Positions 32,875-53,916 of a DNA stretch of 64,000 nt are shown here, piece after piece. The notes beneath the pieces were generated by a model. That model did no database searches, was not told the DNA's origin, and saw only the letters and a list, made by a program, of their open reading frames with translations. Origin of the DNA: Chaetoceros tenuissimus (Eukaryota; Bacillariophyta; Thalassiosirophyceae; Chaetocerotales; Chaetocerotaceae); contig BLLK01000045.1 in assembly GCA_021927905.1 (NCBI GenBank), positions 2,170,001-2,234,000 on the forward strand, written 5' to 3'. Numbering within the stretch: the first letter of the stretch is position 1; each line of letters opens with the position of its first letter. A program made the position numbers and the translations under genes.

Positions 32875-35800
32875 ATGAGCTCAGAGGTGAGAATATTTTA
32901 TTTCTACCTTCTTCTACGGTTTGACTTATTCTAACGTCTTTGTATCACCTCATAAATTCTTGTAAATAATCATTGAAATAGAGGACTTCCAGACGGAAAA
33001 GAGCTGTGCGTACAAATATTGACCAAGTCAATATTGAAGAAACCTTCAACTTTCTTAATAAGGAAGGAGATGTGACGGAAAGTACTTACTACGTCTCAGC
33101 TGAAATTAATCATAAAAAATACTATGGTGTATTAATACCCCAAGATGTCCTTGTTAATGCGTCCGATTTATATTTCGAAAGTGAAGGTAATTCCCTCGCG
33201 ATAAACAGAAGGATAGAAGCTCTTCGATCACCTGAAGCGTCTAAAGATGAAGGAAAAGAACAGCGCGATAATATATCTAAACGACCTTCATTTGATGCTT
33301 CGCGACAAGTACAAAAGTTCAAATATGTCGAACCTACCAAAAATACTACTGGATATCGCCTAATCCTTGCCACTTACGCAAATTTATGGGAAGCATCTGG
33401 GGAGGATATGGACATGTTCATGAAAATTAAAGGTGAGGTCAAAAGCTTCCATGGTTTTGTGGTGTAAGATATTTTCTTCCAAACTCACCATGACTTTTAC
33501 ATTATTATCTTTACAGATGCATGCGAAGTCGGAGGGAATTTTGTAGGAAGGTTTTATTATCAATTCGAGAAAATTCAAAGCACTTTGAAGTTCGCTCAGA
33601 AAGATGATAATGCACAACAACTGTATACATCAATGAGTTTTAGTTCCTTTCTGCTATCTACACCCTTTCCATCTTGGTATCCTCTACGAAATCTCGGAGG
33701 CAAAAGAGCAAAGATTCTAAACCTGCTAAATTTGAAACAAGATGGTAATCAAGTAATCTATGATGCAAATCAAGCACAAATTGACTCCAATATGACAGCA
33801 ACTCAAAGGAAAAACTTTCGAGTTTGCGTAGTTGGCGGAGGTTTAAGTGGACTGGGTTGTTGCCAAGAGCTATTACGTTTATCCAAGCAGAAGAACATCA
33901 AACTCGATGTAGTGTTATACGAAGGGCGAGATAGAATCGGAGGGCGTTGCGCTACAAATTATACATCTTTCAAAACCCCAAGTGGAGATGAATTTCCAGT
34001 CGAGACTGGCGCAGCATTTATCCACGGAGTGACAGGCAATCCAGTTTCCATTCTTGCAATTGCGTCTGGGATTCATTTCCGTAAAGCTAGTGAGCACGTT
34101 AAACTTTTGTCGGGCAACATGAAGCAAGCAAATGAAGTTGAAGATGAAAAGATTTCAAAACTCTTTGATGACATTCTTGATGCTGCAGCGAAGAAAAGTT
34201 GGTTAAGTGACGAATTTGATCCCGAGTCAAGATACCAAAAACAAAGAGCCTTACGCTTTTATGCAAATGGGTTCTCAGTGAAAGAACAGTCAATCAATTT
34301 AGATTCATTGAAAAGCGATGTTGCATCACATAGATTCTCATCAGATTCTTCCGTAAAGAAGTTAATGATGGAGGAGTTGGAACAAATGGGAATTGAGATG
34401 ACTGTATCAGAAAGTAATTTGTTGGAGTGGAATATCAAGCATGCGGAATATTCTTTTGCAGCAAATCTTGATGATCTATCTATGGTGAGTCATCGAAGCA
34501 GCTAAAACTGTAGTCTATGCTTTTTATAAATTGCAGCTGGCCACTCACTTTCTCTATTTTTGTTTCTATTAGAGATATTGGGATGTTGATGAGAAAAATG
34601 CATTCGAAGGCCCACATGTTCAAATGAAAGAAGGTTACTCTAAAGTAGCACAAACTGTCCTGAAGAAGTGTCAAGAAAGTGAAGCTTTTCAACTTCATCT
34701 TAATTCCAGAGTAGAAAAAATTGATTACGATCTCAAATGCTTCTCGAGAGAAAACTCTGACAAGAGTATGATCAGCATTTCGGACACCTGTAAAGTTTCT
34801 ACTTCAAAAAACGAAATGCCATGTGACTTTGCCGTTTGTACTGTCCCCCTGGGAGTATTGAAAAAGGCTGTAGAAAGTAAAGAGAATTCAAACTCCATTC
34901 TCAAGTTTGAGCCACCATTACCATCGGCAAAAGTAGACTCGATTAAACATGTTGGATACGGTTTACTGAACAAAGTGTTTATTCAATTTCCGCACAGCTT
35001 CTGGAGAAAAGATGATACAAAAGAAGCTCTTCGAGCAACGCCATATTTAGGAAATGAAGAATTGCAATTTGGAAACTCTTCTGGTTTGAATCCCCATCAC
35101 TACATGTTCTTCGATGTAGGTTTTGACATTGACAACCCCAAAAGTGAAGATGATCCATGTGTATTACACACACTTATATCCGGTTTGGATGCAGTTGAAA
35201 GCGAAAAGATGTCAGATGAGAACATTGTTCAATCAGTAATGAAAACTCTTCGACACTTATTTTCTGATATCTCAATACCTGAACCTGTAACTTACCATGT
35301 TAGCCGTTGGGGAAACGATACTTTTTCATTTGGGTCTTACAGTTTCTTACCACCGGGATCAAGCGACGAGGATTATAAATCATTGCAAAGTCCAGTTTGC
35401 GCTGATGGTGACTCAATTGAACTAGGGGAACACAATCACACAATGAGACTCTTTTTTGCTGGCGAGCATACCTCTGCAGCCTTTCCATCTCTCACACATG
35501 GCGCATATATCAGCGGTGTCAAGGCCGCACATGAAATTTTTAAGAATTTAAAAAAGAAAAGTGGTTCATCACATGACGGCGAGCAAGAAATCCCTATAAT
35601 TAGATATAGGCAAAACCAGAACCAAGGATCAGATCTCTCTTGTAACTTATGCAAGCGAGTAGGTGGTGATATGGTGGCATTCCAGAGAGATCGAAGGCAC
35701 TATGCACTCGTGCATAGATTATGTATAGAATTCTCTCCAGATGTAAGTTTTGATGGAAGATATTACAAAAATGTCTTTAAGTGTATCAATAGGGGAAATC

Positions 35801-36966
35801 AGTTGAAATGTGTAAATTGCAAGAGTATGGGTGCGACTATTGGTTGTCACGAATCTAATTGTAACCAGAACTATCATTACGACTGCTGTGATGGATGGGA
35901 CTTTGAAAAGAAAGGGAAAGAATTTCGTTGTGTTTTACATAGAAGAGTTGAAGACAATACTTCAAAAAGAGATGGCGATCAGAAACAAAATAGTAGTAGT
36001 TTGGATGATCAAGTCGACAACGACGACGACGAAAAAAATGCTCTCACGAGTTCTCAAGTCGATAATGACAAGACTTCAAGCAGTGAAAATGGACAAGAAG
36101 TTGATTTGGACGTGATACATGACGCAAATACCACCCACGTTACCAGCACAGCAAAAACAATGGACAAAATGAATCAAGAGTCAGAAAAATTGAAAGAAAT
36201 TTCGATAGGGAAATATAGGTACAAGAGACCAGTAGATATAATTCAATGTCATTTATGTCGTGACACTAATGAAGACAAAGAATTGAATGGAGAGTTGCAA
36301 GGGTTTCAACTTCATAACACATTTGCCTTGGTTCACGAGAATTGTCTAAAGTTCTCGAATATTGGCAAATTGTCATCTTCATCGTCTCAGAAAAACGTAT
36401 TTGATGTGATTTCTACCGCAAGACCGTGTTTTTACTGTCATAGAGAGGGAGCTTCAATTCAGTGCTCTAAGAAAAGCTGCTTTCGCCATTTTCACCTGGC
36501 TTGTTTAAAGAACGAAAGACATCTTTTAGAGAAGCAGCCTTTCCAATGCTTTGCACATGTTCAAGCACCAAAAGGAACATATACAATTGGCCCAAGGAAG
36601 AAAATTGTTTTAACTGAAAATAAATGTTTTGAGCTGAATGGTAGAACTGTTTCTCATGACTTGTTTCACTTTGGGAAAACTAGAGAAGATAATGATACAA
36701 TGATTTTACCAAAGAAACGAAAATTGACCAGCAAACTGAACCAAAACATTCTTATCAACAAGCGTCATCAACCAGAAGTTACAAATATTGATCTTTCTGC
36801 TCAAAATGATAGTGATGATTCCGATGATACAGATATTGTCGAGATCGAAGTCCCTCTTCAATTTCAACAACTTCTGAAAAAGGTCGAAATGGGTGCAGGT
36901 AATTCTGGGAATAATCCAATTGAAATCGATGACGACGACGATGATGATGATGGAGATTATATATAA
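32875..36966 (+). CDS. LSD1-like flavin amine oxidase with two extended PHD fingers
   Basis: Exons 32875-32886, 32982-33432, 33517-34484 and 34573-36966 join in frame to 1274 residues. The first exon codes only four residues (MSSE). The FAD-binding fold begins at about 257 (VVGGGLSGLGCCQELL) and continues with GRDRIGGRC. The substrate Lys motif is GYGLLNKV, and the FAD-closing FFAGEHTSAAFPSLTHGAYI ends the oxidase at about 800. Two Cys/His-rich extended PHD modules follow (about 834-935 and 1036-1140), each with the CxxC start and HxxC(x)nH end pattern, then an acidic tail with eight Asp. The oxidase matches histone demethylase KDM1 and polyamine oxidases; the reader fingers argue for a chromatin role. 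No SWIRM domain was recognised. This is the intact copy; its 3' 1.8 kb is duplicated beyond the retroelement. Confidence 0.88.
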
Positions 36967-37319
36967 ATCATGTCTCTACAATGATCATCATTAAAATAGA
37001 ATAATACAGGGAAAATTCGATACATCATAATATCTTGTAGTCATACTACCCTGCGAATGATCTCAATCTCTTAATGCACATTGATTCTATCAAATACTCC
37101 TCGAGGTGAAATGATTTACTGAATTATTACTATGACTATGTACTTCACCATCTTTTTTGGAGAAATTCTCCATCATTTCGTCGCATAGAAGCAAATGTTC
37201 TCTGGTCTACTTTCTTCGATTTTCTTGACACTAATTATTTTCTTTTCTTATGTTTCTTTTTATCCAATCATACCTTCAATAACTTTGTACTTTTACCTCT
37301 GATACATGATAAAAGTAAA
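36967..37319. other. spacer between convergent genes (left copy)
   Basis: 353 nt, the 3' UTRs of the amine oxidase and the truncated lipase. The same sequence recurs at 50650-51002. Confidence 0.5.
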
Positions 37320-38290
37320 TTATGGATCTTTGCAAACTCGTCTCCATTTTCCAGGACAGTATTCGCTGATGCAGTCAGTATTTTCATTACAACTTTTACC
37401 ATTTGCCAGCCTTGCCCTGCATGTTTTATTCCACAGATTACCATCACATCTCTCAGAAAGACAATCCGAGCTCTCGCTACAGCGTTCACCAAGTTCAAGT
37501 CTTCCCTTGCAAATCTTATCGAATGGATTTACACTCTTCCACTTTCGATCGCATCTATTACTTACGCAGTCAGAGTCCCATACACATTTACCACCGATTT
37601 CTTCCAATGACTTACAAGTCATTCCTCGCCCAAAAATATTCAATCTATTGCCCCTATTGCAGTTTTTAGAATAGCATTCAGAGTTTTTGTTACATGCAAT
37701 GCCATTTTCGAAGCCAAGTTGGAAAGATTCACCACTTGAATCAAGATGAGCTTTCATCGGTGTCAAAAGCTTGGGATCCATGTAGTCCTATGAAAATGTA
37801 ACATAGTAAATGTTTAGTGGTTTCCTCAAAGAGCCTCAACATATTCAAATAAATTACTTACAGCGTAATGGTGAACATACCAAATCGCACCATAGTCCTG
37901 CGCATACACTCTTGGCGACTTACTATTATAAAAGTATGCTACACTTTTTGATGAAGTATTGACAAGTCTAAATTCATGACCGATATGCCTTGCATTGCTG
38001 GTAAGTTGGGGGACAGGATCGTAGTGAAGATCATTGCTAACAATGTTGTCAAAAAGATTCTGTCTATCTATGGCAGCGACAAATCGAAAGAACCGATCTT
38101 TGTTGATTAATGGACAGAGATTATGATTGCCCGGCATAGGATATAACGCTGGTGGAGCACCGGCAGTTACAACAACAGGATTTAAATCATGAAGGTAAAT
38201 TGCAGCTACGGTAGCTAATGCGCCTCCTTGTGAATGACCTCCTAGAATGACTGTGCATTTTTTCCCTGTTGCTGTTACACATTCCTCAGC
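37320..38290 (-). pseudogene. truncated 3' copy of the class 3 lipase gene
   Basis: Exons at 38290-37862 and 37787-37320 are identical in sequence to the last two exons of the intact lipase at 51003-53916. They keep the nucleophile elbow GGHSQGG and the Cys-rich C-terminus, but the first two exons (EF-hand-like segment, membrane anchor, FRGT oxyanion region) are absent. The break is 16 nt upstream of the exon border, inside the intron, where the retroelement begins. An open frame now continues for a while into element sequence in antisense, but it has no plausible promoter or start. It cannot encode a working lipase. Confidence 0.88.
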
Positions 38291-38306
38291 CTGTGTAATG
38301 TCCGAA

Positions 38307-38876
38307 CCACCTGAAGAAGGAAAAGAAAATGAAAAAGAAAAAGAGGACACTCCTACCATTACTGCCTCTGAAATCTTCGTTCCGACCTTCATGAACAACC
38401 CGTACCTCCTTCACTGCTTCTTCCCGACTGAAACCCAGAACGAACGCATCCGAAAAAATAGACGCTCCTTCGCCACAATCTGCCCGCTCTGCTACAAAGA
38501 AAAACTATTCAACAAAATCCTTCAACCACACATCATAAAGGATACTCCAGCGCACAAATCGAACATGGCAATCCACAACATGGATGACTACACCCTAATC
38601 AATCATCTACAAAATCCCTCCCTGGCAGAAAATCCGAACAAACCATTCCAAGAGCACACTGTCCTTCTGCACAAGTACCTGTGCACTGTATACGAAATGC
38701 TCCAAACCACACATCACGACGAATTTCAAGCGGCAATTGCTGCTGACCACAAACTCGCCTACTCTGAGCTTCAGCCTCTTCAGATTCCACCTGAGGAGGA
38801 ATCCGAACATGACAAAGAAGTCGCTCTTGCACTACAGTCATCTGAAGATGACTCTACTGCAATGCAACTCTTCTAA
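38307..38876 (+). CDS. retroelement ORF1, probably 5'-truncated
   Basis: The frame is open from the left border of the element and codes about 189 residues; the first ATG inside the element is at 38391 (162 residues from there). It opens with a Lys/Glu run and contains ATICPLCYKEKLF, a single CxxC, then a helical region and an acidic end. In other non-LTR elements ORF1 is an RNA-binding or chaperone protein, but no RRM, PHD or CCHC zinc knuckle is visible. Because the reading frame runs through the border without a start, the original ORF1 was probably longer and the copy is 5'-truncated, which is common for target-primed insertion. Confidence 0.6.
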   Translation, partial: PPEEGKENEKEKEDTPTITASEIFVPTFMNNPYLLHCFFPTETQNERIRKNRRSFATICPLCYKEKLFNKILQPHIIKDTPAHKSNMAIHNMDDYTLINHLQNPSLAENPNKPFQEHTVLLHKYLCTVYEMLQTTHHDEFQAAIAADHKLAYSELQPLQIPPEEESEHDKEVALALQSSEDDSTAMQLF

Positions 38877-39106
38877 GAAAGGACCACTACTCTTTACATC
38901 CTATTCTCTCTCTACTCCAGCACTCAACTTAAAAACTCATTATACAAATAACTCTCTAAACATCATTCCTTTTCTAATCCTGATCACCTTTTCTAGTATC
39001 TCACATATCGTGCGCAAACTTTGATATAAATCACTCAAATCTTTCTTTCTTGTCAAATCTTCGTCTACTGCCATAACATACACCCAGATCACCACATTAG
39101 ACAAAC

Positions 39107-40795
39107 ATGTCTTCTCACATATCCCTTCTCCACCAACATAGTAAAATGGCTACCACCGACACTCCGTATGAATCATCCGAAATCAGTAGAGAGGACATAA
39201 ACCTCATCACTTATAACGCTGGATGCAATACCTCGTTTCAACCAATCCTCAAACTCCTAACAACAAAAAAAGCTGATGTTCTTGCTGTACAAGAACCAAA
39301 CAAAGAACTCCTTGATCCAACCTCACGTAAGCATAAACAATTCCTCCGAGCACTACCGTCTAAGGACTACAAAGTCTACGTCTCCAAGACAAATCTCACA
39401 ATCATTAGTCCATGTAAACTTGGCCCCTATGTTGGTCAAGCACAATCTTCCCTAAATGGCCGAGTTCTAGTCACTCCGCTTGAGGTCACACCAAACTATA
39501 CAATCCTGGTCACAAACATCTATGGCTGTCAGAGAAGCAACAAAGACCACATTCGGATTAATACAGAAATCATGCATTACCTGGATACCCTCCATGACGA
39601 CTGGAAAAACAGAACATACCACATTATTCCCATGGGCGACTTGAATACAGATCCAATTCGAGATCAAAATAAAACAGACAACCTTCTACACTATCTCATT
39701 CGTAAATTTGATGTTTACTCTAACATCCATCATATTTATACGCGTCGTGCAGAAGATGACGATCACTCCTTTCCTATCCCTCCCACATATGAAGATACAA
39801 ACAATGGAAACTCGTGTATTGATCACATCTGTCTTCCACAGAGGCTACTTCCACCTTCAACAAAATCAAAGGATAAATACTTTCCTCGGATCTTACGCAA
39901 ACTAACGTGGAACAAGTCCTCTCATCACCCAGTGCTACAGCAGCTCACTGTTCCACTATATCAATTCCAGCAACATGCAAACACTGATCTTCCACCACCA
40001 ATCTATACGGCACTAACCAATATACCACTTAAGCCTGGACCAGATCCAGACAGTCTGGATGACAATAACAAGGACTGGTTCCAACCCGACGAATCTCTTA
40101 TCCCAGCATCAAAGCTTGCCTCTAAATGTCAACTCATAGAGGAAGCACATAAGCTGCAAAAAACTAGCCCTCGTCTTCAACAATTACTACACCACACAAG
40201 GACCGCAATGGACCAAATTGAGGATATCATTCGCCAACATGCATCCACATCTTCTACACTTATCCCACGAACTATTCAACTGCAGGACCTGCTAACAGAT
40301 GCCCTTAACCACATTGAAAGTGGAATTGACACCACCATGGGCCTCCTCAATCTCTTTCCTGAGCCACCAGCTGTCAAAAAACAAACCAAGCAAACCATCA
40401 CTGGCAACCTTGCCCTTAAACAGGAATGGATTCTTACGACAATTAACAAAATCAAAGCAAGTGCACGGGCAAGGCGTGAACGAAAACTTCCAGTACAACT
40501 TCTCACTCTAGTTACGCATGTTAAGAGCTATAGCAAAGTCCTTCTCAAGATTGAAACCATACTAAACAAAAATCTATCTGACTATGACACCATGATCCAA
40601 CTTCGTCTCCAACGAGCTGAAGACAAAAAGGCAAACGACACACCAGCTTCTAAGAAAACTGTTCCGAAAAATCCTCCTCCGAAATATACCACTGCCAATA
40701 AAAATTCTGTAACAAGAGTATCGGTATGGCCAAAGTGTTCTTCAATAAAAAGAACCCGATTTGAACCTCGAAATAGAAAATTTATGAGATCGTAA
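39107..40795 (+). CDS. retroelement ORF2: apurinic-type endonuclease (EEP superfamily)
   Basis: 562 residues from ATG 39107 (M14 is a second candidate). Residues 30-280 carry all signature motifs of the exonuclease-endonuclease-phosphatase fold: NLITYNAGC (Asn37), VLAVQEP (Glu63, metal ligand), LVTNIYGC (Tyr), IPMGDLNTDP (Asp178 and Asn180), SCIDHICL (Asp239) and SSHHPVL (catalytic His). In LINEs this enzyme nicks the target to provide the primer. The remaining 280 residues are basic and helical and have no RT motif; the frame stops at 40795, 881 nt before the RT start codon. A free-standing endonuclease ORF is the odd part, since in known APE-type elements it is fused to the N-terminus of the RT. 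Confidence 0.88.
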   Translation: MSSHISLLHQHSKMATTDTPYESSEISREDINLITYNAGCNTSFQPILKLLTTKKADVLAVQEPNKELLDPTSRKHKQFLRALPSKDYKVYVSKTNLTIISPCKLGPYVGQAQSSLNGRVLVTPLEVTPNYTILVTNIYGCQRSNKDHIRINTEIMHYLDTLHDDWKNRTYHIIPMGDLNTDPIRDQNKTDNLLHYLIRKFDVYSNIHHIYTRRAEDDDHSFPIPPTYEDTNNGNSCIDHICLPQRLLPPSTKSKDKYFPRILRKLTWNKSSHHPVLQQLTVPLYQFQQHANTDLPPPIYTALTNIPLKPGPDPDSLDDNNKDWFQPDESLIPASKLASKCQLIEEAHKLQKTSPRLQQLLHHTRTAMDQIEDIIRQHASTSSTLIPRTIQLQDLLTDALNHIESGIDTTMGLLNLFPEPPAVKKQTKQTITGNLALKQEWILTTINKIKASARARRERKLPVQLLTLVTHVKSYSKVLLKIETILNKNLSDYDTMIQLRLQRAEDKKANDTPASKKTVPKNPPPKYTTANKNSVTRVSVWPKCSSIKRTRFEPRNRKFMRS

Positions 40796-41676
40796 TCCTT
40801 CTCATTTCAAATCCTCTGACTCCATTCACTTCTTTTACTTGTGACTGAAAATTCAAACAAACTTAACGTAAGTATCTTCTTACGTATCTTGAATCCTCTT
40901 TCTACAAGCTCTCCATTCTGAATGCGAGTCTTCTTATATTCACAACACTAGATCCTCTTGTTAATAATTCTAAGTCTACAAGCATATCGCACACGTTTGG
41001 CTCTCGTCGAATCCCAGGTTAACTCATTTGAGTAAGGATAGGGTTCTGTGAGAGTCAGACGTGTACGACATACTTATAAAATTAAAACTACTATCAACGG
41101 ATGTATCTTTTCCACTAAACATATCTCAAACATGTGATATTCAACTGATAGCCACTACCTGGAACTTCTCTTACAAGTTTGTTCCAATATTAGTTGGGGG
41201 TGGGCCGAAGGTCCACCTCACTCCTCTGTGAATTCTTGGAGAATGCAGAGTCGCCTAAAACAATACGAAAGTCGTAGTAACCTTACTAGAACTCAAACGT
41301 GACTACCTTGGTCATTGCTTTCCTTGGGAGTCAGTTTTCAATCCAGTATGCGAAGCTCCAGTATATTTTCTAGATTCCACGTTAGAAACTGGTCTTCGCG
41401 CTTAGGTCCTATTTTCTCAACTAGGTTATAAAAACCTAACGCCAGAGTGCTTTCCTTCTTATGCACCCTAGCGTCGTAAAGTAATAGCACTTGCAAACCC
41501 CCCATACAACTTTTCACTTCGGTGCTCTATCTATCACTTGACTTTTAGTTACGCCTCGAGCTATCTAAGAATCCCTTACATACGTCTTTACAGGATCCTC
41601 ACAGGCTTTTGCTAAAAGATAATATGCGTTTCAGTACCTTCTTGTGTTCCAATCTGAATATAAAAGTCTCGTTTCG
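40796..41676 (+). ncRNA. structured inter-ORF RNA region of the retroelement
   Basis: 881 nt with no long frame. I found at least seven hairpins that pair by hand: 40866-40885 (7 bp, perfect), 40991-41064 (ACACGT/ACGTGT plus CTCTC/GAGAG around a symmetric 4x4 loop, with a small inner hairpin), 41199-41217 (8 bp, GAA loop, one G-U), 41224-41250 (two 5-bp stems), 41264-41276, 41350-41399 (GCGAAG/CTTCGC, CCAGT/ACTGG, TTCTA/TAGAA stacked) and 41422-41438 followed directly by 41439-41474. Such density is not expected by chance in 600 nt. It could be an internal ribosome entry site for the RT ORF, a ribozyme, or a packaging or RT-binding element. The exact class is unknown. Confidence 0.6.
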
Positions 41677-44600
41677 ATGGACCCAAAACAAGCAACTAGT
41701 AATCCATCACTAGAATTCATTCGTACACACACCAACTTCTGTAAATATGTCACAGTTACTAGGGAAATTGCAGACATGGTTACTACCACAATAGAAAATC
41801 ATATTCTAAGTATGGACGACACGCCATCCGTCAATCAAACACTTGCCTTTGTCACACTAATCCATGACAACCAAATCCAACGTCTCCGCCATAGGACCAA
41901 CCATATACTCCAAAACTATGATAACATTGCTATTGACTTCCACTCCCAATTCGGAAACAGTGCCTTACCTGCGCACCTAATAAATCCTAAAACTCGCTCG
42001 CCACCGGCTGCTAACACAACCATTCCAATATATATTGATCCTCTTTCCGAACCTAAGCTCGTTCCGGCGGTTGGTCCCGTCCAACAAAAAGAAGCAACAC
42101 GAGCTACTCAACAAAGGCAGGCCGATCCACCTCCAGGGAAAGCCCTTCACTTTGTAGAAATCATAAATGACGAAGTTGGACCACATGCCATGGAATATAA
42201 CCCTGATGAGCCCTTTACGGCTGCTGACCTCAATACATATCATCCTCACTCTCATGAATTTCCTGGGGCGGTCCAGGAAGAAATTATACAAGCCCATGCA
42301 CTCTTTATCCAAATAACAGAAACGCTGAAGGACAAACATCAAAACAACATTGGTAAACCGGAAACACAATGGCCCTTCACAGCGACAATCGAACAATGCC
42401 CCATTACAAATGCTTCAGTCTTGCATTATAACAATTCACCAATAACTATGAAGCCTAAAATACCTTATGTTCCCTCTACTGCACGTCTAAATGGATTCAC
42501 ATTGAATGTCCTAGCCAGACTTCACCCCTGCTGGATGCGATCCTTGGATAGACTCACTAATCTTGTCCTCGCTACACGGATTCTCCCTAAATCTCTTAAA
42601 ACTACAGGCAGAGTCCTTATTGACAAGCCTAACTCAACAGACAAACGACCAATATCCATTCTACATGCCTATGATTCATACATCGACACAATTGTAGCAA
42701 CTCACCTTGCTAAGGCAGTCGAGGATCTACAGATCTATGATGACACCATTGCGGCATATCGCCCAGGTCACTCATGCTCTGACTGCACTCTAAATCACCT
42801 CCTAGCTATTCAAGACACCGTTGCAAGAGATGACTACTACCTATGTCAACTAGATGAAGATAAAGAAAAATTCTTTGATCGAATTACCACAGAACTCCAA
42901 CTGCTACCATTCCACCTTATGGGATTTCCAAATGAAGGATACATAGAATGGATCGCTGAATCTCTTAACAATGTTGCCATCCTCACAGCAACTCCGTTTG
43001 GTTCCGTAAAGACTACGTTCAAATGCGGAGTTCGCCAAGGCTCAGCCCTATCCTGTGTAATTGCCAATGCTGTTGCCTGGCTCAGTGCTGCCCCTTGGTC
43101 ACTAGATATCGATGATACACCTCCACCAGGACATCAGCCAGTACAACTCCATCCTTTTGACATTACCCATAACAACTCCGGTATGCTTAATAAGTTCTCC
43201 TATTGTGATGACTCGTCGGCATACATAACTAGCACAGATATTGAACAACTCTTCGAATTCATAGCACGAGACATCACCATGTCTAACACCATATCCATTG
43301 TTACCAAACTTAGCATAAACGCAAAAAAGAGTCACATTCGAATCACCAACCTGCCGTCTAGGTACCCTATTCCGTCCTTTCACTATATCTCTTGGCATCA
43401 TGGCACCAAGACAGTCCAAGCAAAGAGAATTCCTACCAGTAATATGACAGATAAACGACTGACAGACTCCTCTCGTCTCTTTGGAACTTACTCCAATGGT
43501 AAAGGCCATACCCAGGAAAATCAGAGACAACACTTTCCAAAAATGCATGCAACAAGGGCCTCCTTCAAAAACTTGAACCTCCAACCTGCTACCTTCTCCA
43601 CACAATTTCCGGCGCTGGTGACCTCGACGGTAAACTTTAATGTCCTTGCGATGTCATACAACCTTGAAGCAGCTATCAAGGACGATTACATTACTATATA
43701 CAAATATGCAGCTCCAATCTTTGGCATTCACCCAGCAGCAGATTCCATGTATTCAATGTTCCTCCCTAAAACTGCACTGGGTCACAACTTTACTGGTATA
43801 CTTACCCTCCAACTAGCAATTGCAATAACTCGTGAGCTATTTGTAACACTCAATGCCCCTCACCATCAACAAACATCGCTCCTTCAAGTCCGTGCTAGAG
43901 CCATGCTTCACAACCTAACTATAACAGCCTCAACCTATGATCCTCTGGACATACTTCCGCATGCTATACATCAACTTGCTCTACTCGGCATCTACCTAGT
44001 TCCTACAACATATCCCATTGCAAATCAAGCACTAGCGCAGCTAATACAACATGACATAAGTACCACAGCCATCGGAACACCTAAACAGCAATCACATCGC
44101 ACTCGATCTCCCCTTGACAATCTACTAAATGGAAATAACATCAAATTTGCAAGTATCGACCCTATCTATCGGTCCCTCCTGATTACAATATGGTCCCTTG
44201 CAAATACCGTAAACAGTCCTTACCACCGATCTGAACCATTCAAAGAAATATTCTATGCCACCAGTATGCCCACACCTGTGCAAAATCCACATCACACGCC
44301 TCAAACAAGAGTCATTAATGTCCGTGCGGCAGCCATTGAGCTCCAACCTCAATATAATCACCTATCTCACTTCCTTCAGCTAGATTTCCTCAGTCAGCGT
44401 CGAAACTTGCATAAACCGGAACACTTCCTCAATAATAATCCACTCTTTCCTTCAACCTTTGTGCTTCACTCCCTCTTTCCAGCACATGATAATGCACAAA
44501 CAAACTGGCCAGATTCACCTATAACATCGCTTCATGCCTTCCATGAACGCAATTCCCTCGCTCTAGCTCCTGAAAGCTCCACTTTCTCACATGTGCAGCA

Positions 44601-46083
44601 CGTCCTGGATCATTACAATTCACCACTTCTACTTTCATCTGACTCAGGCCACTGTCGAAGGACAGGATTCACTGTTGCCGCCTCCATCCTCATGGCACTT
44701 CAAACGGAGCCAGACAATACAAATGATCCAGTCAAATATGATGAACCACCAATTCCAATCCTTGTCCGAAATCACATCCTGGCACAAACATACGGTACCA
44801 AGACCACAGACAATAACATGGGAGAAGCTCAAGGACTGATACTGTCCCTATACATGGCACCGAAAGACATACATGCAGTCTTCCTTCTTGACTCCAAAAT
44901 AGTACTACTCCAAGTCCTGGCATACTTCCAGCCACATGCTGCAACAATCCGACATCAGCTTCGGACTCATATTCACACCACATCCATTCATCATTACTCA
45001 GAACTTCATCAAGCCTTAGCTCGTCATTGGCCAAATGCCAACCATAGACCATCATCGGCCTCATGTGAAAAATCACCATTCCTGGTCCATCGCCACTTTC
45101 AACTTATCATCCAACATCTCCATGATACACTTGGCCAAGAGGCTTTACTACACCTGACTCCTGATGCTGATTCCAATCTCCCGACACTATCTGATGTCAC
45201 TCATGGCTTCCAGATTGGACACCACCTTTTTCTCCACATTCATTCGCATCAACTTACTAACTATGGCAAACGTAAACTAGATCCAGACACGAAACAACCA
45301 ATTGATCCGATTCCAAACATGGCTTTCGCCTCAGCCAACACCTGGGCTGATCGCCCTGCATCAAGGATGGCTGAAGCACTTCCCACAGATCTGCCACAAA
45401 TCCTCCTGGATCACATCTCACAGCCACCAATGACTCGAATTCAATATACCTACATGCATGAGTCCAAACTGGTAAACACTGATCACACTACATACCTTAG
45501 GGAACAATGGACAAAACACAATATGGAACTAGCGGCTCTCCGACAAGACCACTGGTACCTCCACCTTCTTCCGTCGTTTGCAGATCCAACTACAACCTTC
45601 AACACAGATTCCACACTACGTAATCTGGCACAGGAAAGAGCCCTGTCCCATCAACGACTCCTTCGGATAAACCTAACCTACCGCCAATACTTTCAAGCAA
45701 AATGTCATCCATGTCAACAAGACCTACCTCGAAATGTTATCTCGACACAAATGCAACTATGCCCACTGTGTCCCGTAACATCAACACCAGCAACCTCACT
45801 GCACTATCACATTCAATGCACATCTCACAAAATAGCTCTAAATCGAAAACAACGCACTAGAAAAATAGAAAAAATACTTAGCGACCTTGACGCCATCACC
45901 TCCTACATGTCAAATATCATTCATCCTAATCACAGGTATCGACACAATAGAATCCCTCTCTTCACGACCTTCCTTCGTACAGCAATCAACCATACCGGCT
46001 TAATCAAGCCCCTTACACCATCTCAAAGGCAGAAATACTACTCCACAACAGTCTATCCGCCATTTCAAAGCAAAAACCTATGA
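41677..46083 (+). CDS. retroelement ORF3: reverse transcriptase with RNase H and zinc-finger tail
   Basis: 1468 residues from ATG 41677. Residues 1-250 are unassigned. The RT spans about 300-560: RPISIL, YRPGHSCSDCTL, motif A DEDKEKFFDRI (Asp near 393-395), motif B GVRQGSALSC (about 451) and motif C YCDDSSAY (509-512). An RNase H domain follows: SSDSGHCRRTGF (Asp 989), NMGEAQGLIL (Glu 1050), VFLLDSKIVLLQ (Asp 1072) and NTWADRPA (Asp 1225), so the acidic set is complete. Near the end is CPLCPVTST followed by HYHIQC, a CCHC finger typical of non-LTR RT C-termini. No endonuclease lies in this protein, neither EEP nor the restriction-like type. It should copy element RNA at the target and degrade the template. 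Fully open, hence possibly active. Confidence 0.9.
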   Translation: MDPKQATSNPSLEFIRTHTNFCKYVTVTREIADMVTTTIENHILSMDDTPSVNQTLAFVTLIHDNQIQRLRHRTNHILQNYDNIAIDFHSQFGNSALPAHLINPKTRSPPAANTTIPIYIDPLSEPKLVPAVGPVQQKEATRATQQRQADPPPGKALHFVEIINDEVGPHAMEYNPDEPFTAADLNTYHPHSHEFPGAVQEEIIQAHALFIQITETLKDKHQNNIGKPETQWPFTATIEQCPITNASVLHYNNSPITMKPKIPYVPSTARLNGFTLNVLARLHPCWMRSLDRLTNLVLATRILPKSLKTTGRVLIDKPNSTDKRPISILHAYDSYIDTIVATHLAKAVEDLQIYDDTIAAYRPGHSCSDCTLNHLLAIQDTVARDDYYLCQLDEDKEKFFDRITTELQLLPFHLMGFPNEGYIEWIAESLNNVAILTATPFGSVKTTFKCGVRQGSALSCVIANAVAWLSAAPWSLDIDDTPPPGHQPVQLHPFDITHNNSGMLNKFSYCDDSSAYITSTDIEQLFEFIARDITMSNTISIVTKLSINAKKSHIRITNLPSRYPIPSFHYISWHHGTKTVQAKRIPTSNMTDKRLTDSSRLFGTYSNGKGHTQENQRQHFPKMHATRASFKNLNLQPATFSTQFPALVTSTVNFNVLAMSYNLEAAIKDDYITIYKYAAPIFGIHPAADSMYSMFLPKTALGHNFTGILTLQLAIAITRELFVTLNAPHHQQTSLLQVRARAMLHNLTITASTYDPLDILPHAIHQLALLGIYLVPTTYPIANQALAQLIQHDISTTAIGTPKQQSHRTRSPLDNLLNGNNIKFASIDPIYRSLLITIWSLANTVNSPYHRSEPFKEIFYATSMPTPVQNPHHTPQTRVINVRAAAIELQPQYNHLSHFLQLDFLSQRRNLHKPEHFLNNNPLFPSTFVLHSLFPAHDNAQTNWPDSPITSLHAFHERNSLALAPESSTFSHVQHVLDHYNSPLLLSSDSGHCRRTGFTVAASILMALQTEPDNTNDPVKYDEPPIPILVRNHILAQTYGTKTTDNNMGEAQGLILSLYMAPKDIHAVFLLDSKIVLLQVLAYFQPHAATIRHQLRTHIHTTSIHHYSELHQALARHWPNANHRPSSASCEKSPFLVHRHFQLIIQHLHDTLGQEALLHLTPDADSNLPTLSDVTHGFQIGHHLFLHIHSHQLTNYGKRKLDPDTKQPIDPIPNMAFASANTWADRPASRMAEALPTDLPQILLDHISQPPMTRIQYTYMHESKLVNTDHTTYLREQWTKHNMELAALRQDHWYLHLLPSFADPTTTFNTDSTLRNLAQERALSHQRLLRINLTYRQYFQAKCHPCQQDLPRNVISTQMQLCPLCPVTSTPATSLHYHIQCTSHKIALNRKQRTRKIEKILSDLDAITSYMSNIIHPNHRYRHNRIPLFTTFLRTAINHTGLIKPLTPSQRQKYYSTTVYPPFQSKNL

Positions 46084-46159
46084 CAACATACCTGACTGGA
46101 ATGGCCATGCTCTTACTACACCACCGAATCGCCTCACAAGTGCCCATACATCGTACCTT

Positions 46160-48502
46160 ATGGGGCTACCAGAAGAAAACCTCCCAGCTTATCCAACAAA
46201 TCATTTTCATGTCATCCCACTGCTTGGACTTCTACCAACAAACACACATATTGCCATCCATGAATACCTCAACATGATCCATCACAAATTCTGCAAGGCA
46301 ATTCGAGCAAGATCTCCACAAGTCTTACCTTCTCCCAGTCCAAAGGTTACAATCGAGTACATTAAACAACTATTCCGAGCCGAAACTGATATTTCACTCC
46401 TTGCCACGTTCAGTGACACAAAGACACTACTTGAGATCCTTCAAGACAAGTTCCTCCTTCTCCTTAAAAGTCTCATGAAAAAAACAAAGAACTTACAGGG
46501 AACTATCAGCCAGGCACTTCGTGAAAATCAAAGAAAGCATGTTCCACCTTCACCACCTTCTGCTAAGCCTCCAAAACGTAAACTCATTCATGAACACAGC
46601 ACCTGTGACATAAACGATGGTCAACCCAAATCTAAGAAAAGGAAGCGTCCCATCCCAAATAAACTCCCCACCTATCCCTGTCCTGGAAGATGGTGCACAC
46701 TTCGAAACTCAAAGTCATTATCGTATACCATGTCCACAATGAAAAAGAACTGTACTCTCTGTCAACACATTCAGCTTGCTACCACCATTGCCACCACTGT
46801 AACTGCTCATATCATCTGTGATGAAGCAGCACTGTCTCTTATTTTAGAATATACCAACATAGATCCCCAGCAATTTACAGTGGGAAACATAGCCACGAGA
46901 CTCGCACTCAGGCAAACTCCTCTCGACGAAATACGAGATATCCTCTCTAATGCCATCTCTCATACAGAGACAAAGCTCTATATCTCTGACAAAATCACCT
47001 TCCTTCCCCTTGGTGATGCCCTCTATGAAACTCCAGATGCTCAACTTCAGGAACTTGTCCTTCACCTAGTTGCATATGCCTGTCTCATCCCCATTACTCC
47101 ACCGCTAACGAGAGAGTTCCCACCTCTGACTACGGAACGGCTCCAAGACATCATCGAGCGAGCTCTAGTCTTCTGTACTTGTCCAACACCATGTCCAGCA
47201 CCAAATCTACATACAAATCTGTGCAAACTTTGCTCCAACCTTATCTTAAATAAGCGGAATTCCCTTCTTCGACACCACGACCAACGTTGCTCCACCTGCA
47301 TCACGTGTGACAGAGGGATCCTCCTTGCCAAATATCCCAATAAACCATGCGACATATGCCTTCAGACAGCAATTCTCGTTCAAAGGAATCCCAGGGAAAC
47401 ATGGAACACCCTTAACAAAGCTACATCACCGTCAGTGCTCCCACACTTGCTCCCAACACCCTATGCATACATCCATAACGTCCCTAGGATCCGACCAAGT
47501 CCGCATTCGTCTTCTCTACCACCAGAAGATATATATCAAACTCGTGACCCAAGAAATCCTCGCCCTCAGCTAATGCCCAACGAAGATCCAGACTTCCATT
47601 ACCAGGACTGTTATGAAGAAGAGTCTTTCCTTGATATGAAAATCTTTCCACCTCGTCCTCCTTTTATGCCGTTTCCCCGAGTGTATGCACCTATAGCGAT
47701 CACTACGGATATTACCTTAACAAATCTTCATCTAGCATTACACCCAGCACTCTACAGACCCGACTATGCAGGGCTTCACCTCCACTACAAGAGACCATGC
47801 TTCCCTAGGTTTGAAGGCATTCGACCACCAGCATTTGGATACTATCCTGAAATGTATTTCGATCAGAATGTACAGGCCCTAGCACGAGCAATGCCATCAT
47901 TGGACATCCATGAAGTTACAAGCAGCATGGTACACCCAAACCCAAGCTTTGTTACCAGCTCCTCCTGGTACCATCACACAACAGTCACCTGGACCTTCCT
48001 TGAACACCCTCAGCCTCGTACGAAATGCCCAAATGAACGCATTTATAAGACGCCAGTCACATTCATCCTCACATTCTATCCACCAATGACATACCTTCCA
48101 CCATTCCAGATACGACTACACTTCAATCCCAATGACATGGAACGAGATCTACCACCGCGAGACAATATCCTCACTTCAGATATAGCCATAAAGGAGCTTG
48201 ACAAAAATGAAGATCCTACCCTCTACGCGCTCATGCTAATATACCTCATTATTACACTACCGCCTCAATTCCTAAGTGACGATACAGTCTCAGCTTTCAT
48301 GTTAACTTTTCCGGAGAACCTAAGGCAACTCCATCACGAAAGCTCCTACCTACATGCCATCCTCCATGATGAAAACTATAGTCAAGCCCTACACCACATC
48401 ACTACCCCATGGAAACTCACATACGAACAACAAGACGAAGACTATTCCGACCATCCAAATGACAGACCAAGACGATACAATCCTGACAACCCCAACCATT
48501 AA
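46160..48502 (+). CDS. retroelement ORF4: large Cys-rich protein of unknown function
   Basis: 780 residues from ATG 46160, in the +1 frame relative to the RT ORF. The frame has no stop upstream for at least 60 nt across the RT stop codon, so translation could start at 46160, reinitiate near the RT stop (an ATGA overlap lies at 46080, but in the third frame) or arise by frameshifting. Residues about 125-175 are basic (KPPKRK, KSKKRKRP). Cys groups include CPGRWC with CTLC (about 170-195), CTCPTPC, CKLC, CSTCITC and CDIC (about 335-405), consistent with several zinc sites. The last 350 residues are Pro, His and Tyr rich with acidic ends. No RT, protease, helicase or capsid motif is recognised. 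A nucleic-acid-binding protein is a guess from the Cys and basic segments. Confidence 0.75.
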   Translation: MGLPEENLPAYPTNHFHVIPLLGLLPTNTHIAIHEYLNMIHHKFCKAIRARSPQVLPSPSPKVTIEYIKQLFRAETDISLLATFSDTKTLLEILQDKFLLLLKSLMKKTKNLQGTISQALRENQRKHVPPSPPSAKPPKRKLIHEHSTCDINDGQPKSKKRKRPIPNKLPTYPCPGRWCTLRNSKSLSYTMSTMKKNCTLCQHIQLATTIATTVTAHIICDEAALSLILEYTNIDPQQFTVGNIATRLALRQTPLDEIRDILSNAISHTETKLYISDKITFLPLGDALYETPDAQLQELVLHLVAYACLIPITPPLTREFPPLTTERLQDIIERALVFCTCPTPCPAPNLHTNLCKLCSNLILNKRNSLLRHHDQRCSTCITCDRGILLAKYPNKPCDICLQTAILVQRNPRETWNTLNKATSPSVLPHLLPTPYAYIHNVPRIRPSPHSSSLPPEDIYQTRDPRNPRPQLMPNEDPDFHYQDCYEEESFLDMKIFPPRPPFMPFPRVYAPIAITTDITLTNLHLALHPALYRPDYAGLHLHYKRPCFPRFEGIRPPAFGYYPEMYFDQNVQALARAMPSLDIHEVTSSMVHPNPSFVTSSSWYHHTTVTWTFLEHPQPRTKCPNERIYKTPVTFILTFYPPMTYLPPFQIRLHFNPNDMERDLPPRDNILTSDIAIKELDKNEDPTLYALMLIYLIITLPPQFLSDDTVSAFMLTFPENLRQLHHESSYLHAILHDENYSQALHHITTPWKLTYEQQDEDYSDHPNDRPRRYNPDNPNH

Positions 48503-48857
48503 AAATACAACAAAATACATAACAGGCTAAGGAATAGCTTGGGTTATAAATATTTCAACTAAGCCCTAGGAACTCTCTGCGACGTTCCTAGGCCTTATGC
48601 TGTAATGAGTACCGAGGTACTCACTACAGCATAAGACCAGATCCCCTGCTGGCATCAAGCCACTGGGGATTACGTTCTCTATACAAAGGAGCTCTGAGAA
48701 GTACAAACACATCTCACCTCATTTGTGAGTTCATGGTCCCGCAGCGAACTGCTTTAACAAGGAGTACCATCGCCTGAAACATTGGCATGCTATATGTTGT
48801 GGAAACTTGGTGGTTCGTTGAAGTTGCTCTAGATTGTAAACCTAAACCTAAACCTAA
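48503..48857 (+). ncRNA. hairpin-rich 3' UTR of the retroelement
   Basis: 355 nt with five consecutive stems: 48565-48592 (CCTAGGAAC/GTTCCTAGG, perfect 9 bp), 48594-48635 (11 + 8 bp with one A-C mismatch and a 2-nt loop), 48641-48670 (ATCCCC/GGGGAT plus TGGC/GCCA), 48713-48729 (CTCAC/GTGAG) and 48741-48752 (GCAG/CTGC). Structured 3' UTRs are what R2-like and stringent LINE reverse transcriptases recognise when starting target-primed copying. The UTR ends in the (TAAACC)n tail. Confidence 0.7.
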
Positions 48858-50649
48858 ACTTATATCCGGTTTGGATGCAGTTGAAAGCGAAAAGATGTCA
48901 GATGAGAACATTGTTCAATCAGTAATGAAAACTCTTCGACACTTATTTTCTGATATCTCAATACCTGAACCTGTAACTTACCATGTTAGCCGTTGGGGAA
49001 ACGATACTTTTTCATTTGGGTCTTACAGTTTCTTACCACCGGGATCAAGCGACGAGGATTATAAATCATTGCAAAGTCCAGTTTGCGCTGATGGTGACTC
49101 AATTGAACTAGGGGAACACAATCACACAATGAGACTCTTTTTTGCTGGCGAGCATACCTCTGCAGCCTTTCCATCTCTCACACATGGCGCATATATCAGC
49201 GGTGTCAAGGCCGCACATGAAATTTTTAAGAATTTAAAAAAGAAAAGTGGTTCATCACATGACGGCGAGCAAGAAATCCCTATAATTAGATATAGGCAAA
49301 ACCAGAACCAAGGATCAGATCTCTCTTGTAACTTATGCAAGCGAGTAGGTGGTGATATGGTGGCATTCCAGAGAGATCGAAGGCACTATGCACTCGTGCA
49401 TAGATTATGTATAGAATTCTCTCCAGATGTAAGTTTTGATGGAAGATATTACAAAAATGTCTTTAAGTGTATCAATAGGGGAAATCAGTTGAAATGTGTA
49501 AATTGCAAGAGTATGGGTGCGACTATTGGTTGTCACGAATCTAATTGTAACCAGAACTATCATTACGACTGCTGTGATGGATGGGACTTTGAAAAGAAAG
49601 GGAAAGAATTTCGTTGTGTTTTACATAGAAGAGTTGAAGACAATACTTCAAAAAGAGATGGCGATCAGAAACAAAATAGTAGTAGTTTGGATGATCAAGT
49701 CGACAACGACGACGACGAAAAAAATGCTCTCACGAGTTCTCAAGTCGATAATGACAAGACTTCAAGCAGTGAAAATGGACAAGAAGTTGATTTGGACGTG
49801 ATACATGACGCAAATACCACCCACGTTACCAGCACAGCAAAAACAATGGACAAAATGAATCAAGAGTCAGAAAAATTGAAAGAAATTTCGATAGGGAAAT
49901 ATAGGTACAAGAGACCAGTAGATATAATTCAATGTCATTTATGTCGTGACACTAATGAAGACAAAGAATTGAATGGAGAGTTGCAAGGGTTTCAACTTCA
50001 TAACACATTTGCCTTGGTTCACGAGAATTGTCTAAAGTTCTCGAATATTGGCAAATTGTCATCTTCATCGTCTCAGAAAAACGTATTTGATGTGATTTCT
50101 ACCGCAAGACCGTGTTTTTACTGTCATAGAGAGGGAGCTTCAATTCAGTGCTCTAAGAAAAGCTGCTTTCGCCATTTTCACCTGGCTTGTTTAAAGAACG
50201 AAAGACATCTTTTAGAGAAGCAGCCTTTCCAATGCTTTGCACATGTTCAAGCACCAAAAGGAACATATACAATTGGCCCAAGGAAGAAAATTGTTTTAAC
50301 TGAAAATAAATGTTTTGAGCTGAATGGTAGAACTGTTTCTCATGACTTGTTTCACTTTGGGAAAACTAGAGAAGATAATGATACAATGATTTTACCAAAG
50401 AAACGAAAATTGACCAGCAAACTGAACCAAAACATTCTTATCAACAAGCGTCATCAACCAGAAGTTACAAATATTGATCTTTCTGCTCAAAATGATAGTG
50501 ATGATTCCGATGATACAGATATTGTCGAGATCGAAGTCCCTCTTCAATTTCAACAACTTCTGAAAAAGGTCGAAATGGGTGCAGGTAATTCTGGGAATAA
50601 TCCAATTGAAATCGATGACGACGACGATGATGATGGAGATTATATATAA
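48787..50649 (+). pseudogene. truncated 3' copy of the amine oxidase gene, fused in frame to element 3' UTR
   Basis: The host part starts at 48858 and is the last 597 codons of the amine oxidase (oxidase C-terminal lobe, both extended PHD fingers, acidic tail with seven rather than eight Asp). The FAD-binding N-terminus is gone, so no oxidase can form. By chance the reading frame stays open back through the (TAAACC)n tail, which reads KPKPKPK, to an ATG at 48787 in the element 3' UTR. The result is an uninterrupted 620-residue frame with 24 element-derived residues. Whether it is transcribed is unknown. It could give a stand-alone double-PHD protein or be a silent fragment. Confidence 0.85.
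48837..48857 (+). repeat. (TAAACC)n 3' tail of the element
   Basis: Three TAAACC units plus a final TAAA directly before the right host copy. Short tandem tails are common at non-LTR 3' ends. The unit is one base short of the plant-type telomere unit CCCTAAA. Confidence 0.85.
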
Positions 50650-51989
50650 ATCATGTCTCTACAATGATCATCATTAAAATAGAATAATACAGGGAAAATT
50701 CGATACATCATAATATCTTGTAGTCATACTACCCTGCGAATGATCTCAATCTCTTAATGCACATTGATTCTATCAAATACTCCTCGAGGTGAAATGATTT
50801 ACTGAATTATTACTATGACTATGTACTTCACCATCTTTTTTGGAGAAATTCTCCATCATTTCGTCGCATAGAAGCAAATGTTCTCTGGTCTACTTTCTTC
50901 GATTTTCTTGACACTAATTATTTTCTTTTCTTATGTTTCTTTTTATCCAATCATACCTTCAATAACTTTGTACTTTTACCTCTGATACATGATAAAAGTA
51001 AATTATGGATCTTTGCAAACTCGTCTCCATTTTCCAGGACAGTATTCGCTGATGCAGTCAGTATTTTCATTACAACTTTTACCATTTGCCAGCCTTGCCC
51101 TGCATGTTTTATTCCACAGATTACCATCACATCTCTCAGAAAGACAATCCGAGCTCTCGCTACAGCGTTCACCAAGTTCAAGTCTTCCCTTGCAAATCTT
51201 ATCGAATGGATTTACACTCTTCCACTTTCGATCGCATCTATTACTTACGCAGTCAGAGTCCCATACACATTTACCACCGATTTCTTCCAATGACTTACAA
51301 GTCATTCCTCGCCCAAAAATATTCAATCTATTGCCCCTATTGCAGTTTTTAGAATAGCATTCAGAGTTTTTGTTACATGCAATGCCATTTTCGAAGCCAA
51401 GTTGGAAAGATTCACCACTTGAATCAAGATGAGCTTTCATCGGTGTCAAAAGCTTGGGATCCATGTAGTCCTATGAAAATGTAACATAGTAAATGTTTAG
51501 TGGTTTCCTCAAAGAGCCTCAACATATTCAAATAAATTACTTACAGCGTAATGGTGAACATACCAAATCGCACCATAGTCCTGCGCATACACTCTTGGCG
51601 ACTTACTATTATAAAAGTATGCTACACTTTTTGATGAAGTATTGACAAGTCTAAATTCATGACCGATATGCCTTGCATTGCTGGTAAGTTGGGGGACAGG
51701 ATCGTAGTGAAGATCATTGCTAACAATGTTGTCAAAAAGATTCTGTCTATCTATGGCAGCGACAAATCGAAAGAACCGATCTTTGTTGATTAATGGACAG
51801 AGATTATGATTGCCCGGCATAGGATATAACGCTGGTGGAGCACCGGCAGTTACAACAACAGGATTTAAATCATGAAGGTAAATTGCAGCTACGGTAGCTA
51901 ATGCGCCTCCTTGTGAATGACCTCCTAGAATGACTGTGCATTTTTTCCCTGTTGCTGTTACACATTCCTCAGCCTGTGTAATGTCCGAA
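48858..51989. repeat. right copy of 3.13 kb direct duplication
   Basis: 3132 nt matching 35172-38306, offset 13686 nt at the start and 13683 at the end because of one missing GAT codon. It begins inside amine oxidase coding sequence and ends inside the lipase second intron, running straight on into the rest of the lipase gene. Confidence 0.95.
50650..51002. other. spacer between convergent frames (right copy)
   Basis: 353 nt, the duplicate of 36967-37319. Nothing further seen. Confidence 0.5.
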
Positions 51990-53916
51990 ACAGTTAGTCA
52001 TAAGGAGAGTTTAGTGAATATCAATAAGAAAGTCAAAAGACTTACACATCTTCTTAATTCATACTCCATTCCATTGTCCTCGGGGTTCGGATTCCAAAGT
52101 TCAGTTTCATCAATGAAAGTTCGGCGAAAACCTTTTCGAACTTTGCACTGTAATTCTGAATTTTCAACATCAACTATTGACGTAAGAGGATTGGCATTTT
52201 GCGAAACCCAATCTGTCAAACGCCATTGGGTTCCACGAAATGCACCATAGCAGATATCTCCAATTTTCTCCACAACACCGAAATCAAGCGCTTTAGCTTT
52301 TTTATATACACGTGCGTTGAAACCTTTTTCAGCAATTTCTCTAGCTGAGACACATCCCTCTGTCACTTGACTGAAATTGAGATTACCTAGGCCCGGTTTA
52401 TGAGTACATCCACTCTCTTTTGCAAATCTGATATCAATGGAAGCTTCTTCTCCTTCCTGTTCTTGTCTTAACTTTCTGTAAGTTTTTCTATCACCAAAGT
52501 CAAATTTATAACTTGCGAAATGTTCATATTGCAAATAATTGTAGTCAGTAGCTGTCATTGGTCCAGTTTTCTGTACATTAGCGATAATCTTTGAGAAGGT
52601 TTTGTAAATCTCATTAAACAAGGATGGACTAATTTCGGTCAATTCTCCTTGGTGGTTGAACGCTTCTTGCGCAAGCTCTTCGTAACCCTCAAATTCTGAT
52701 TCAACCAAGCAAGTCTTTGAGTTTTCATCGACTCCAGCACAGACATTAGACTCGCATTGCCCGTCACAAGCACATGGTTCGCCAGCTTGCTTGAGGTTTT
52801 GTTCAATATCGTTCAGGCAACAAAGCAGTGGTACTTCATTTTTCGGAACAATGTAGAATTCGCAATTGGTTTCTTCGCAACTTTTCAAATACCAAACCTC
52901 GCTTTCCCCATTAAATGCATAAAAGGTGCATCCTCCACCAGAGTAGCTGGCAGGTGCGAATGTAGGAAGAACATGTGATGCTTCTGTAGTATCTGATTGG
53001 AATGTGATGGTCATAGGACGAGCACCATTGATTGCATCTAGATGGAGCTGCTCACATTGAGACTTTAGAAGAGACCCTCTAAAATATTCGTTTTTAGCTA
53101 CATCATAAAAGTCCTCCACTGCACATCCTGATCTCTCAACATAAGTGTCTTCAAGGCGGCGATCTTTAGAAGAACTTACTACGCCCATGAAATCCATTCT
53201 TGCTGTTGCAGATGTTCCATGTGCTGTTGTAGCTAGGGTTTTAGCCTCCTTGTTGTTGGCAACAATGGTACCTCCTTTCACCGCCATATCCTTGGAAAGG
53301 TTGGAAGCTATGACGCCCATGAGTAAATTGGAACAAAGAATGAAAGCGCAAAATACTAGTGTAAAAAAGAGCAGGAATCTCAAGTTATTATACTTTTTCT
53401 GAAACTTCAGTAGCATATTCAATTTCATGTACACTTCATTTGCATCAAGACCATCCCCTTTTATATCCGAAATAATATTTGAGTCGCTGAAATTGATTGG
53501 TATGTTTGTACAACTATTACATACTTGAGTATTGGTTACTTACCTTTATCCATATCTCTTAGCATCTGCTCTTTTTCATCAAGGTGCCCTTTTCCAGTTA
53601 GGTCGTATTTCTTTGATAAGAATGATAATGCATTTTTGCCTTCTTGGTTTTTGGTCTTGGTGCCTCGTTTACGAAGACCTACACTGTCACCATTAGTATC
53701 ATTAAAGGAATCTACATTGCCTTCCATCTTTACTGCTACGTTAGCCTCTTGATGAAATGTATTCTCGTTTGTCTCTTCTGGTGGTGCTGCTGTATTACGA
53801 GTACCTTCTTCCAGAAGTGACTGTGGTTCTAATTTGTCATCACCTTTTCCTTCTGCAAAGCTTAAAGGAAAATCTACCGAAGACATGGTTTCTTCAGTAT
53901 CACTGCGTTTTACCAA
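51003..53916 (-). CDS. class 3 lipase with EF-hand-like segment, membrane anchor and Cys-rich tail
   Basis: Exons 53916-53544, 53457-52046, 51973-51545 and 51470-51003 give 893 residues with intact frame. Residues about 105-135 (KYDLTGKGHLDEKEQ, then RDMDKGDGLDANEVY across the first intron) resemble a degenerate pair of EF-hands. A membrane segment follows at about 150-175 (FLLFFTLVFCAFILC). The class 3 lipase fold shows CYGAFRGTQW (oxyanion strand) and the nucleophile elbow GGHSQGG (Ser about 615). The last 150 residues hold five Cys repeats of the form GxxCxxxxDCxSxxC, probably disulfide-bonded, so this part lies in the lumen or outside the cell. The substrate (triacylglycerol or galactolipid) cannot be told. 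This is the intact copy; its last two exons and half of intron 2 are within the duplication. Confidence 0.85.

Follow-up and report, generated by a model that had tools for sequence, protein, structure and literature searches.

Long direct duplications of host DNA flank most tested copies of a LINE-type retrotransposon in the diatom Chaetoceros tenuissimus

The window analyzed here is a stretch of 64,000 nucleotides of the C. tenuissimus genome (C32:2170001-2234000 in the contig numbering used throughout), in which a retrotransposon of the long interspersed nuclear element (LINE) type, 10.55 kb in length, has a copy of the same 3.13-kb host segment immediately on either side [Table 1]. Kilobase duplication is not confined to the window site: it is very probably a habit of the element family, produced by the insertion of the LINE itself. 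The first-pass annotation of the window had proposed a giant target-site duplication produced by insertion, a proposal now supported by the finding of long flanking duplications at 10 of 13 tested copies of the element.

The two copies of the host segment (3135 bp on the left and 3132 bp on the right) displayed no substitution over 3132 aligned positions and differed by a single 3-bp gap in a GAC/GAT run, in agreement with the earlier description of the copies as the same save for one GAT codon. Also as described earlier, the element directly follows the left copy, and its (TAAACC)n tail gives way directly to the right copy, 'AC' at 48858-48859 matching tail and target alike and leaving the 3' junction ambiguous by 2 bp. 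At E ≤ 1e-10, the window contained no repeat pair other than the flanking host segment, and when each copy plus flank was searched against the 41-Mb assembly, the segment was placed at just these two sites.

Other copies of the element were located by scanning the assembly for three TAAACC units. The scan returned 25 distinct sites (41 overlapping matches), a few of which may be due to chance since the reversed control gave 5 matches; an extra copy at C32:2406503 with two full tail units only brought the number of tail-bearing copies to 26. Thirteen copies, similar to the window element or near such matches, were tested for long flanking duplications as the first-pass annotation had suggested: ten carried them, two were consistent but incomplete or anomalous, and one showed none. 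A copy at C65:28524-32874, matching element positions 4281-8707 only and devoid of a readable 3' end, was left out. The ten direct duplications measured 0.58-3.1 kb, four of these lengths being lower bounds, and were thus at least 583 bp long as opposed to 5-30 bp in L1. A short-only target-site duplication was identified at none of the 13 tested copies, of which C13 could hide one. For the four copies whose surroundings were fully readable (window, C34, C16 and C27), the element is in direct contact with the duplication at either end. When six other stretches of 20-27 kb each were compared with themselves as a control, the element-flanking pairs were the sole direct repeats of at least 300 bp at 99% identity.

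At 1.05 Mb on C14, where the element starts at 1051852, the right copy of the duplication stops exactly at the start of a Copia element (C14:1055605 onward), identified by an LTR that begins with TGACAG, by CTGTCA farther downstream and by domains of a Copia polyprotein. The Copia insertion may thus interrupt the right copy, in which case the true duplication would span 1047272-1051851 (4580 bp), DUF202 and VTC frames included, with the remainder of the right copy outside the analyzed stretch. Elsewhere, at C48:1745496-1749656 and 1753136-1757296, two RT-like pieces are offset from each other by 7640 bp, as are two tails, which suggests one more direct duplication, 4.1 kb or longer. Two same-strand tails also lie 8043 bp apart at C33:897523 and C33:905566, a pair that may stem from yet another duplication or from two separate insertions.

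Relative to the C48 copy, those at C21 and C58 showed 100% identity over the 2473 and 2561 bp compared, while the duplications at C21, C58 and C48 (583, at least 1500 and 1087 bp, respectively) were mutually unrelated. At C21 and C58, the elements begin at points 88 bp from each other, and in both the duplication extends to the first base of the element. Variable 5' truncation was also apparent at C34 and C16, which start at element positions 3535 and 6464. Three further copies (C27, C14:1732486 and C32:2406503) have in common a 5' region (~90.5% identical over 2.05 kb) that is unmatched in the window element, followed by the 3' end of the LINE. This short derivative, 3079 bp long at C27 (C27:2323507-2326585), is presumably non-autonomous and apparently mobilized in trans, and it too is bordered by long duplications, such that the trait was seen in LINE copies of three sequence groups as well as in the derivative. 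Because identical copies sit within unrelated duplications and the derivative displays the same type of duplication, kilobase duplication is not peculiar to one site or copy. The C21 target (L029 1-1500) is itself a repeat without Pfam match, with copies 92-99% identical on C37, C65, C43 (two), C10 and C26, and ~70% identical copies elsewhere.

Three other histories of the locus were weighed against duplication by insertion. Had a tandem duplication come first, an exact hit of its junction would be required at every locus, a string of coincidences of the kind to which the first-pass annotation had already objected; moreover, the other copies of the C21 target repeat run unbroken through p, the left edge of the duplication, those on C65 and C43 (two) covering the whole 1500-bp query once. 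The occurrence of identical copies within unrelated duplications excludes this order of events in practice. The same end structure would also arise if two insertions separated by 0.6-3 kb on homologous or sister chromosomes underwent unequal recombination within the element and thereby duplicated the intervening DNA, as is reportedly the case for Drosophila Bar. Such exchange would, however, require a close insertion pair at each of ten loci, and both the absence of an identified short-duplication insertion among the tested copies and the finding of recent identical copies each with its own duplication speak against it; we regard it as highly improbable.

The third possibility, that the assembler or haplotype merging joined two haplotypes or insertion alleles in tandem, draws on the way in which the sequence was obtained: Illumina and Nanopore reads from a genome with 1.56% heterozygosity were assembled with MaSuRCA followed by HaploMerger2 and merged into one haplotype (PMC8613185). 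Against it, the duplicated copies displayed 0/3132, 0/1678, 5/1803, 2/797 and 2/2681 substitutions, where 49, 26, 28, 12 and 42 would be expected at 1.56%, although polishing may have lowered the counts; in addition, the arrangement recurs at ten loci, distributed over seven contigs, and its edges coincide with the element ends. The wrong joining of haplotypes, of which the first-pass annotation had warned, is thus opposed on statistical grounds rather than by reads. Given the identical copies with unrelated duplications, mis-joining is, like the Bar-type exchange, very unlikely.

The element between the copies, previously noted as a retroelement, proved to be a LINE with one frame matching Exo_endo_phos (E 2.2e-6) and another matching RVT_1 (E 2.9e-12, with YCDD), and with no long terminal repeats in the window, whose single repeat pair is the flanking host segment. 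It is a LINE with an apurinic-type endonuclease, and the long target-site duplication alters the variant rather than the class because variable duplication length is known within LINEs. The window element is probably 5'-truncated, given that its first frame comes in from the flanking DNA and has no independent start. No Pfam match to RNase H was obtained, the positions of the acidic motif being chosen by eye only. The TAAACC tail is common to seven copies aligned at the 3' end. A telomeric origin of this tail was considered and rejected, the published telomere repeat being TTAGGG (PMC8613185) and no run of two or more tail units occurring in seven 2-kb contig-end stretches.

The proteins of relatives carry the element parts in fewer, longer frames. 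In P0008 and P0009 (source 'ena'), which are known from proteins alone, endonuclease, reverse transcriptase and C-terminal region follow one another in one long frame, the endonuclease lying upstream and displaying 27-28% identity to the window endonuclease frame, and the reverse transcriptase region being 48% identical to that of the window. At 39917-39931, the window copy reads SSHHP where P0008 and P0009 read PSDHYP (SDH motif), and its endonuclease may, judging from these residues, be inactive. The parts that flank the 0.96-kb repeat in the window are joined in one frame in P0006; the repeat itself occurs alone on C13 (99.9% identical over 839 bp) and in arrays on C27 and C28. Among public gene models, CTEN210_08458 (P0005, 2105 aa) presents 41644-48502, that is, the reverse transcriptase and third frames, as a single hypothetical host protein. 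AlphaFold2 modeling of the third frame yielded a mean pLDDT of 35. A search of solved structures with the reverse transcriptase alignment returned no match, and a similar search with the endonuclease frame just weak matches to spike-protein helices, taken for coiled-coil chance; no relatives were found in one viral-contig scan.

To account for these structures, we propose target-primed reverse transcription in which the bottom strand is nicked at p and its 3' end would pair with the TAAACC tail. At six of seven tail-side junctions, one or two target bases continue the tail, the seventh being entered as 0, a lower bound; overall, an overlap of 10 nt, from values read by eye, compares with 2.6 expected (P 0.002) and fits priming by a nicked target pairing with the tail. 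Reverse transcription would then proceed from p and often end early, as evidenced by the truncated copies, and the free cDNA end would be joined, with no visible microhomology, to a top-strand 3' end at q, which the duplications place 0.6-3 kb downstream. Fill-in of both strands would leave the full p-q copy found on either side. The end at q may already be present in replicating DNA, for instance as a leading-strand end on the sister chromatid, or else be provided by a distant second nick. We favor the former, tentatively and at less than even confidence, in that it would account for duplications rather than deletions and for sizes of hundreds of bases to a few kilobases, corresponding to the leading-lagging gap. 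Both mechanisms envisioned in the first-pass annotation, a distant second-strand break and copying by repair, remain live. More doubtful is the extension whereby this LINE lineage would integrate at replication forks as a rule, with lagging-side-primed cDNA joined to the leading-strand end of the sister and every insertion duplicating the lead-lag gap. Genes cut at both edges retain a full copy within the kilobase duplications, which would also permit exact reversion by recombination, and the cost to a gene-dense genome would be low.

Most of this explanation would be shared, the cause alone differing, if the diatom lacked or did not use a repair step that keeps the second nick close, so that any LINE would make giant duplications. 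In human cells deficient in nucleotide excision repair (NER), 47 of 58 new L1 inserts carried duplications of more than 100 bp, 18 of the 47 exceeding 1 kb (PMC5223499), and in the diatom four element sequence groups with one common 3' end all display the trait. The 7-bp target-site duplication around a virus-derived fragment that has been ascribed to a host LINE (PMC8613185) argues the other way. No unrelated LINE clade that could serve as a host control was found among 51 frames of at least 220 aa unlike the element proteins, seven of which were run against Pfam, the sole reverse transcriptase being that of a Copia polyprotein. A cause residing in the host appears less likely than not, though well short of implausible.

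Several observations weigh against duplication by insertion as the habit of this LINE. The tested sample amounts to 13 of the 26 tail-bearing copies. At C14 1.10-1.12 Mb, readable in part, 257 bp beside the element recur at 1117357-1117613, which is consistent with a duplication of ~1.8 kb, incomplete. The C40 copy is structurally odd and was not counted: 1710 bp (40679-42388 and 46329-48038) recur right after the tail, the other copy lying within the element's own reverse transcriptase region without visible break, possibly because the element inserted into another copy of itself and the product was resolved by homology. At C13:11733, a tandem-repeat stretch 12 kb from the contig end, a search blind to short duplications revealed no long one. 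The endonuclease of the window copy deviates at the usual catalytic motif. Microhomology at the 5' end was seen at none of the three junctions readable against a longer copy (C34, C21 and C58), and annealing-primed joining thus gains no support. Finally, the structures were read from the assembled sequence.

The closest likeness is to human LINE-1 in NER-deficient (XPA, XPC and XPD) cells, whose duplications reach similar lengths and for which a distant second nick or replication ends have been proposed (PMC5223499). There, however, kilobase duplications are an aberration of mutant cells and 5-30 bp is usual (PMC5223499), whereas the diatom duplications surround most tested copies in a natural genome; the tails also differ, being TAAACC in the diatom element and poly(A) in LINE-1. 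Tandem duplications in human tumors similarly feature LINE-1 cDNA where two direct copies meet, and have been explained by the joining of the cDNA to a sister-chromatid break downstream of the first nick, a model drawn for a 22.6-Mb L1 duplication (PMC7058536). These are rare single events, one of 22.6 Mb (PMC7058536), in contrast to the recurrent 0.6-3 kb of the diatom. A LINE group named in diatoms, LINE/Ambal as annotated in Pleurosigma (PMC12803021), is a further point of comparison; the available sections of that source make no mention of target-site duplications. The literature searched, which includes the available sections of PMC8547959 and PMC2912911 and leaves most subscription papers outside, yielded no natural family of LINEs in which duplications of kilobase size are the norm. 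What appears to be new here is a natural family with kilobase duplications as the rule, human L1 cases being known as exceptions, commonly in NER-deficient cells (PMC5223499).

The factors that complete LINE insertion have been stated to be unknown (PMC5223499). Second-strand completion and what sets duplication length are poorly understood, and the diatom family offers many independent events for their dissection. It also represents a route by which a retrotransposon may routinely duplicate exons and gene ends. Annotation seeking short duplications only would miss or misread such insertions.

Table 1. Features of the window (positions within the window) and length of the duplications flanking the element at the window and nine other loci
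Feature	Position	Duplication length	Strand	Basis or remark
Host amine-oxidase/PHD frame	34624..36966		+	passes left edge 35172 unbroken
Left copy of duplicated host segment	35172..38306		.	holds 3' part of amine-oxidase/PHD gene and lipase gene portion cut at 38306
Non-LTR retrotransposon, probably 5'-truncated	38307..48857		+	TAAACC-repeat tail
5'-end open frame	38307..38876		+	enters from flank without own start; no Pfam match
Endonuclease frame	39107..40795		+	Pfam Exo_endo_phos; final 32 codons inside inserted 0.96-kb repeat
0.96-kb repeat between endonuclease and reverse transcriptase frames	40697..41652		.	also occurs alone elsewhere in genome
Reverse transcriptase frame	41644..46083		+	Pfam RVT_1; YCDD at 43201; RNase H-like residues downstream, by eye only
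Third frame, 780 aa	46160..48502		+	cysteine pairs conserved among 5 relatives; no Pfam match
TAAACC-repeat tail, 23 bp	48837..48859		+	last 2 bp common to target
Right copy of duplicated host segment	48858..51989		.	self-comparison and assembly search
Host lipase-like gene part, 615-aa frame	51536..53428		-	crosses right edge 51989/51990 within inferred 72-bp intron 51974-52045
Window duplication		3135/3132 bp		read from letters
C34 duplication		1678 bp		read from letters
C16 duplication		1804/1805 bp		read from letters
C27 duplication		2681/2693 bp		read from letters
C14 at 1.05 Mb duplication		at least 797 bp		read from letters
C14:1732486 duplication		at least 1121 bp		search coordinates
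C32:2406503 duplication		at least 1130 bp		search coordinates
C58 duplication		at least 1500 bp		search coordinates; ~1831 bp if continuing through 331 unread bp to tail
C21 duplication		583 bp		search coordinates; begins 2 bp past tail match
C48 duplication		1087 bp		search coordinates; 99% identical; ends 3 bp from tail match

At five of five loci, the left copy retains an open frame (213-858 aa) that crosses the left edge p without interruption. A frame of 200 aa or more without stops encloses all five left edges, as compared to 57% of positions drawn at random from those flanks; as a test for insertion preference within genes, this difference is not significant at the present sample. At the window locus, both outer edges look ancestral. 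Lipase_3 was matched on the equivalent frame of the left copy, and the two right-copy frames had no lipase match because they lie outside the Lipase_3 domain. Counted once, the segment serves both the amine-oxidase/PHD gene and the lipase-like gene; after the insertion, one full open copy of each cut gene is kept outside, as predicted by insertion-coupled duplication.

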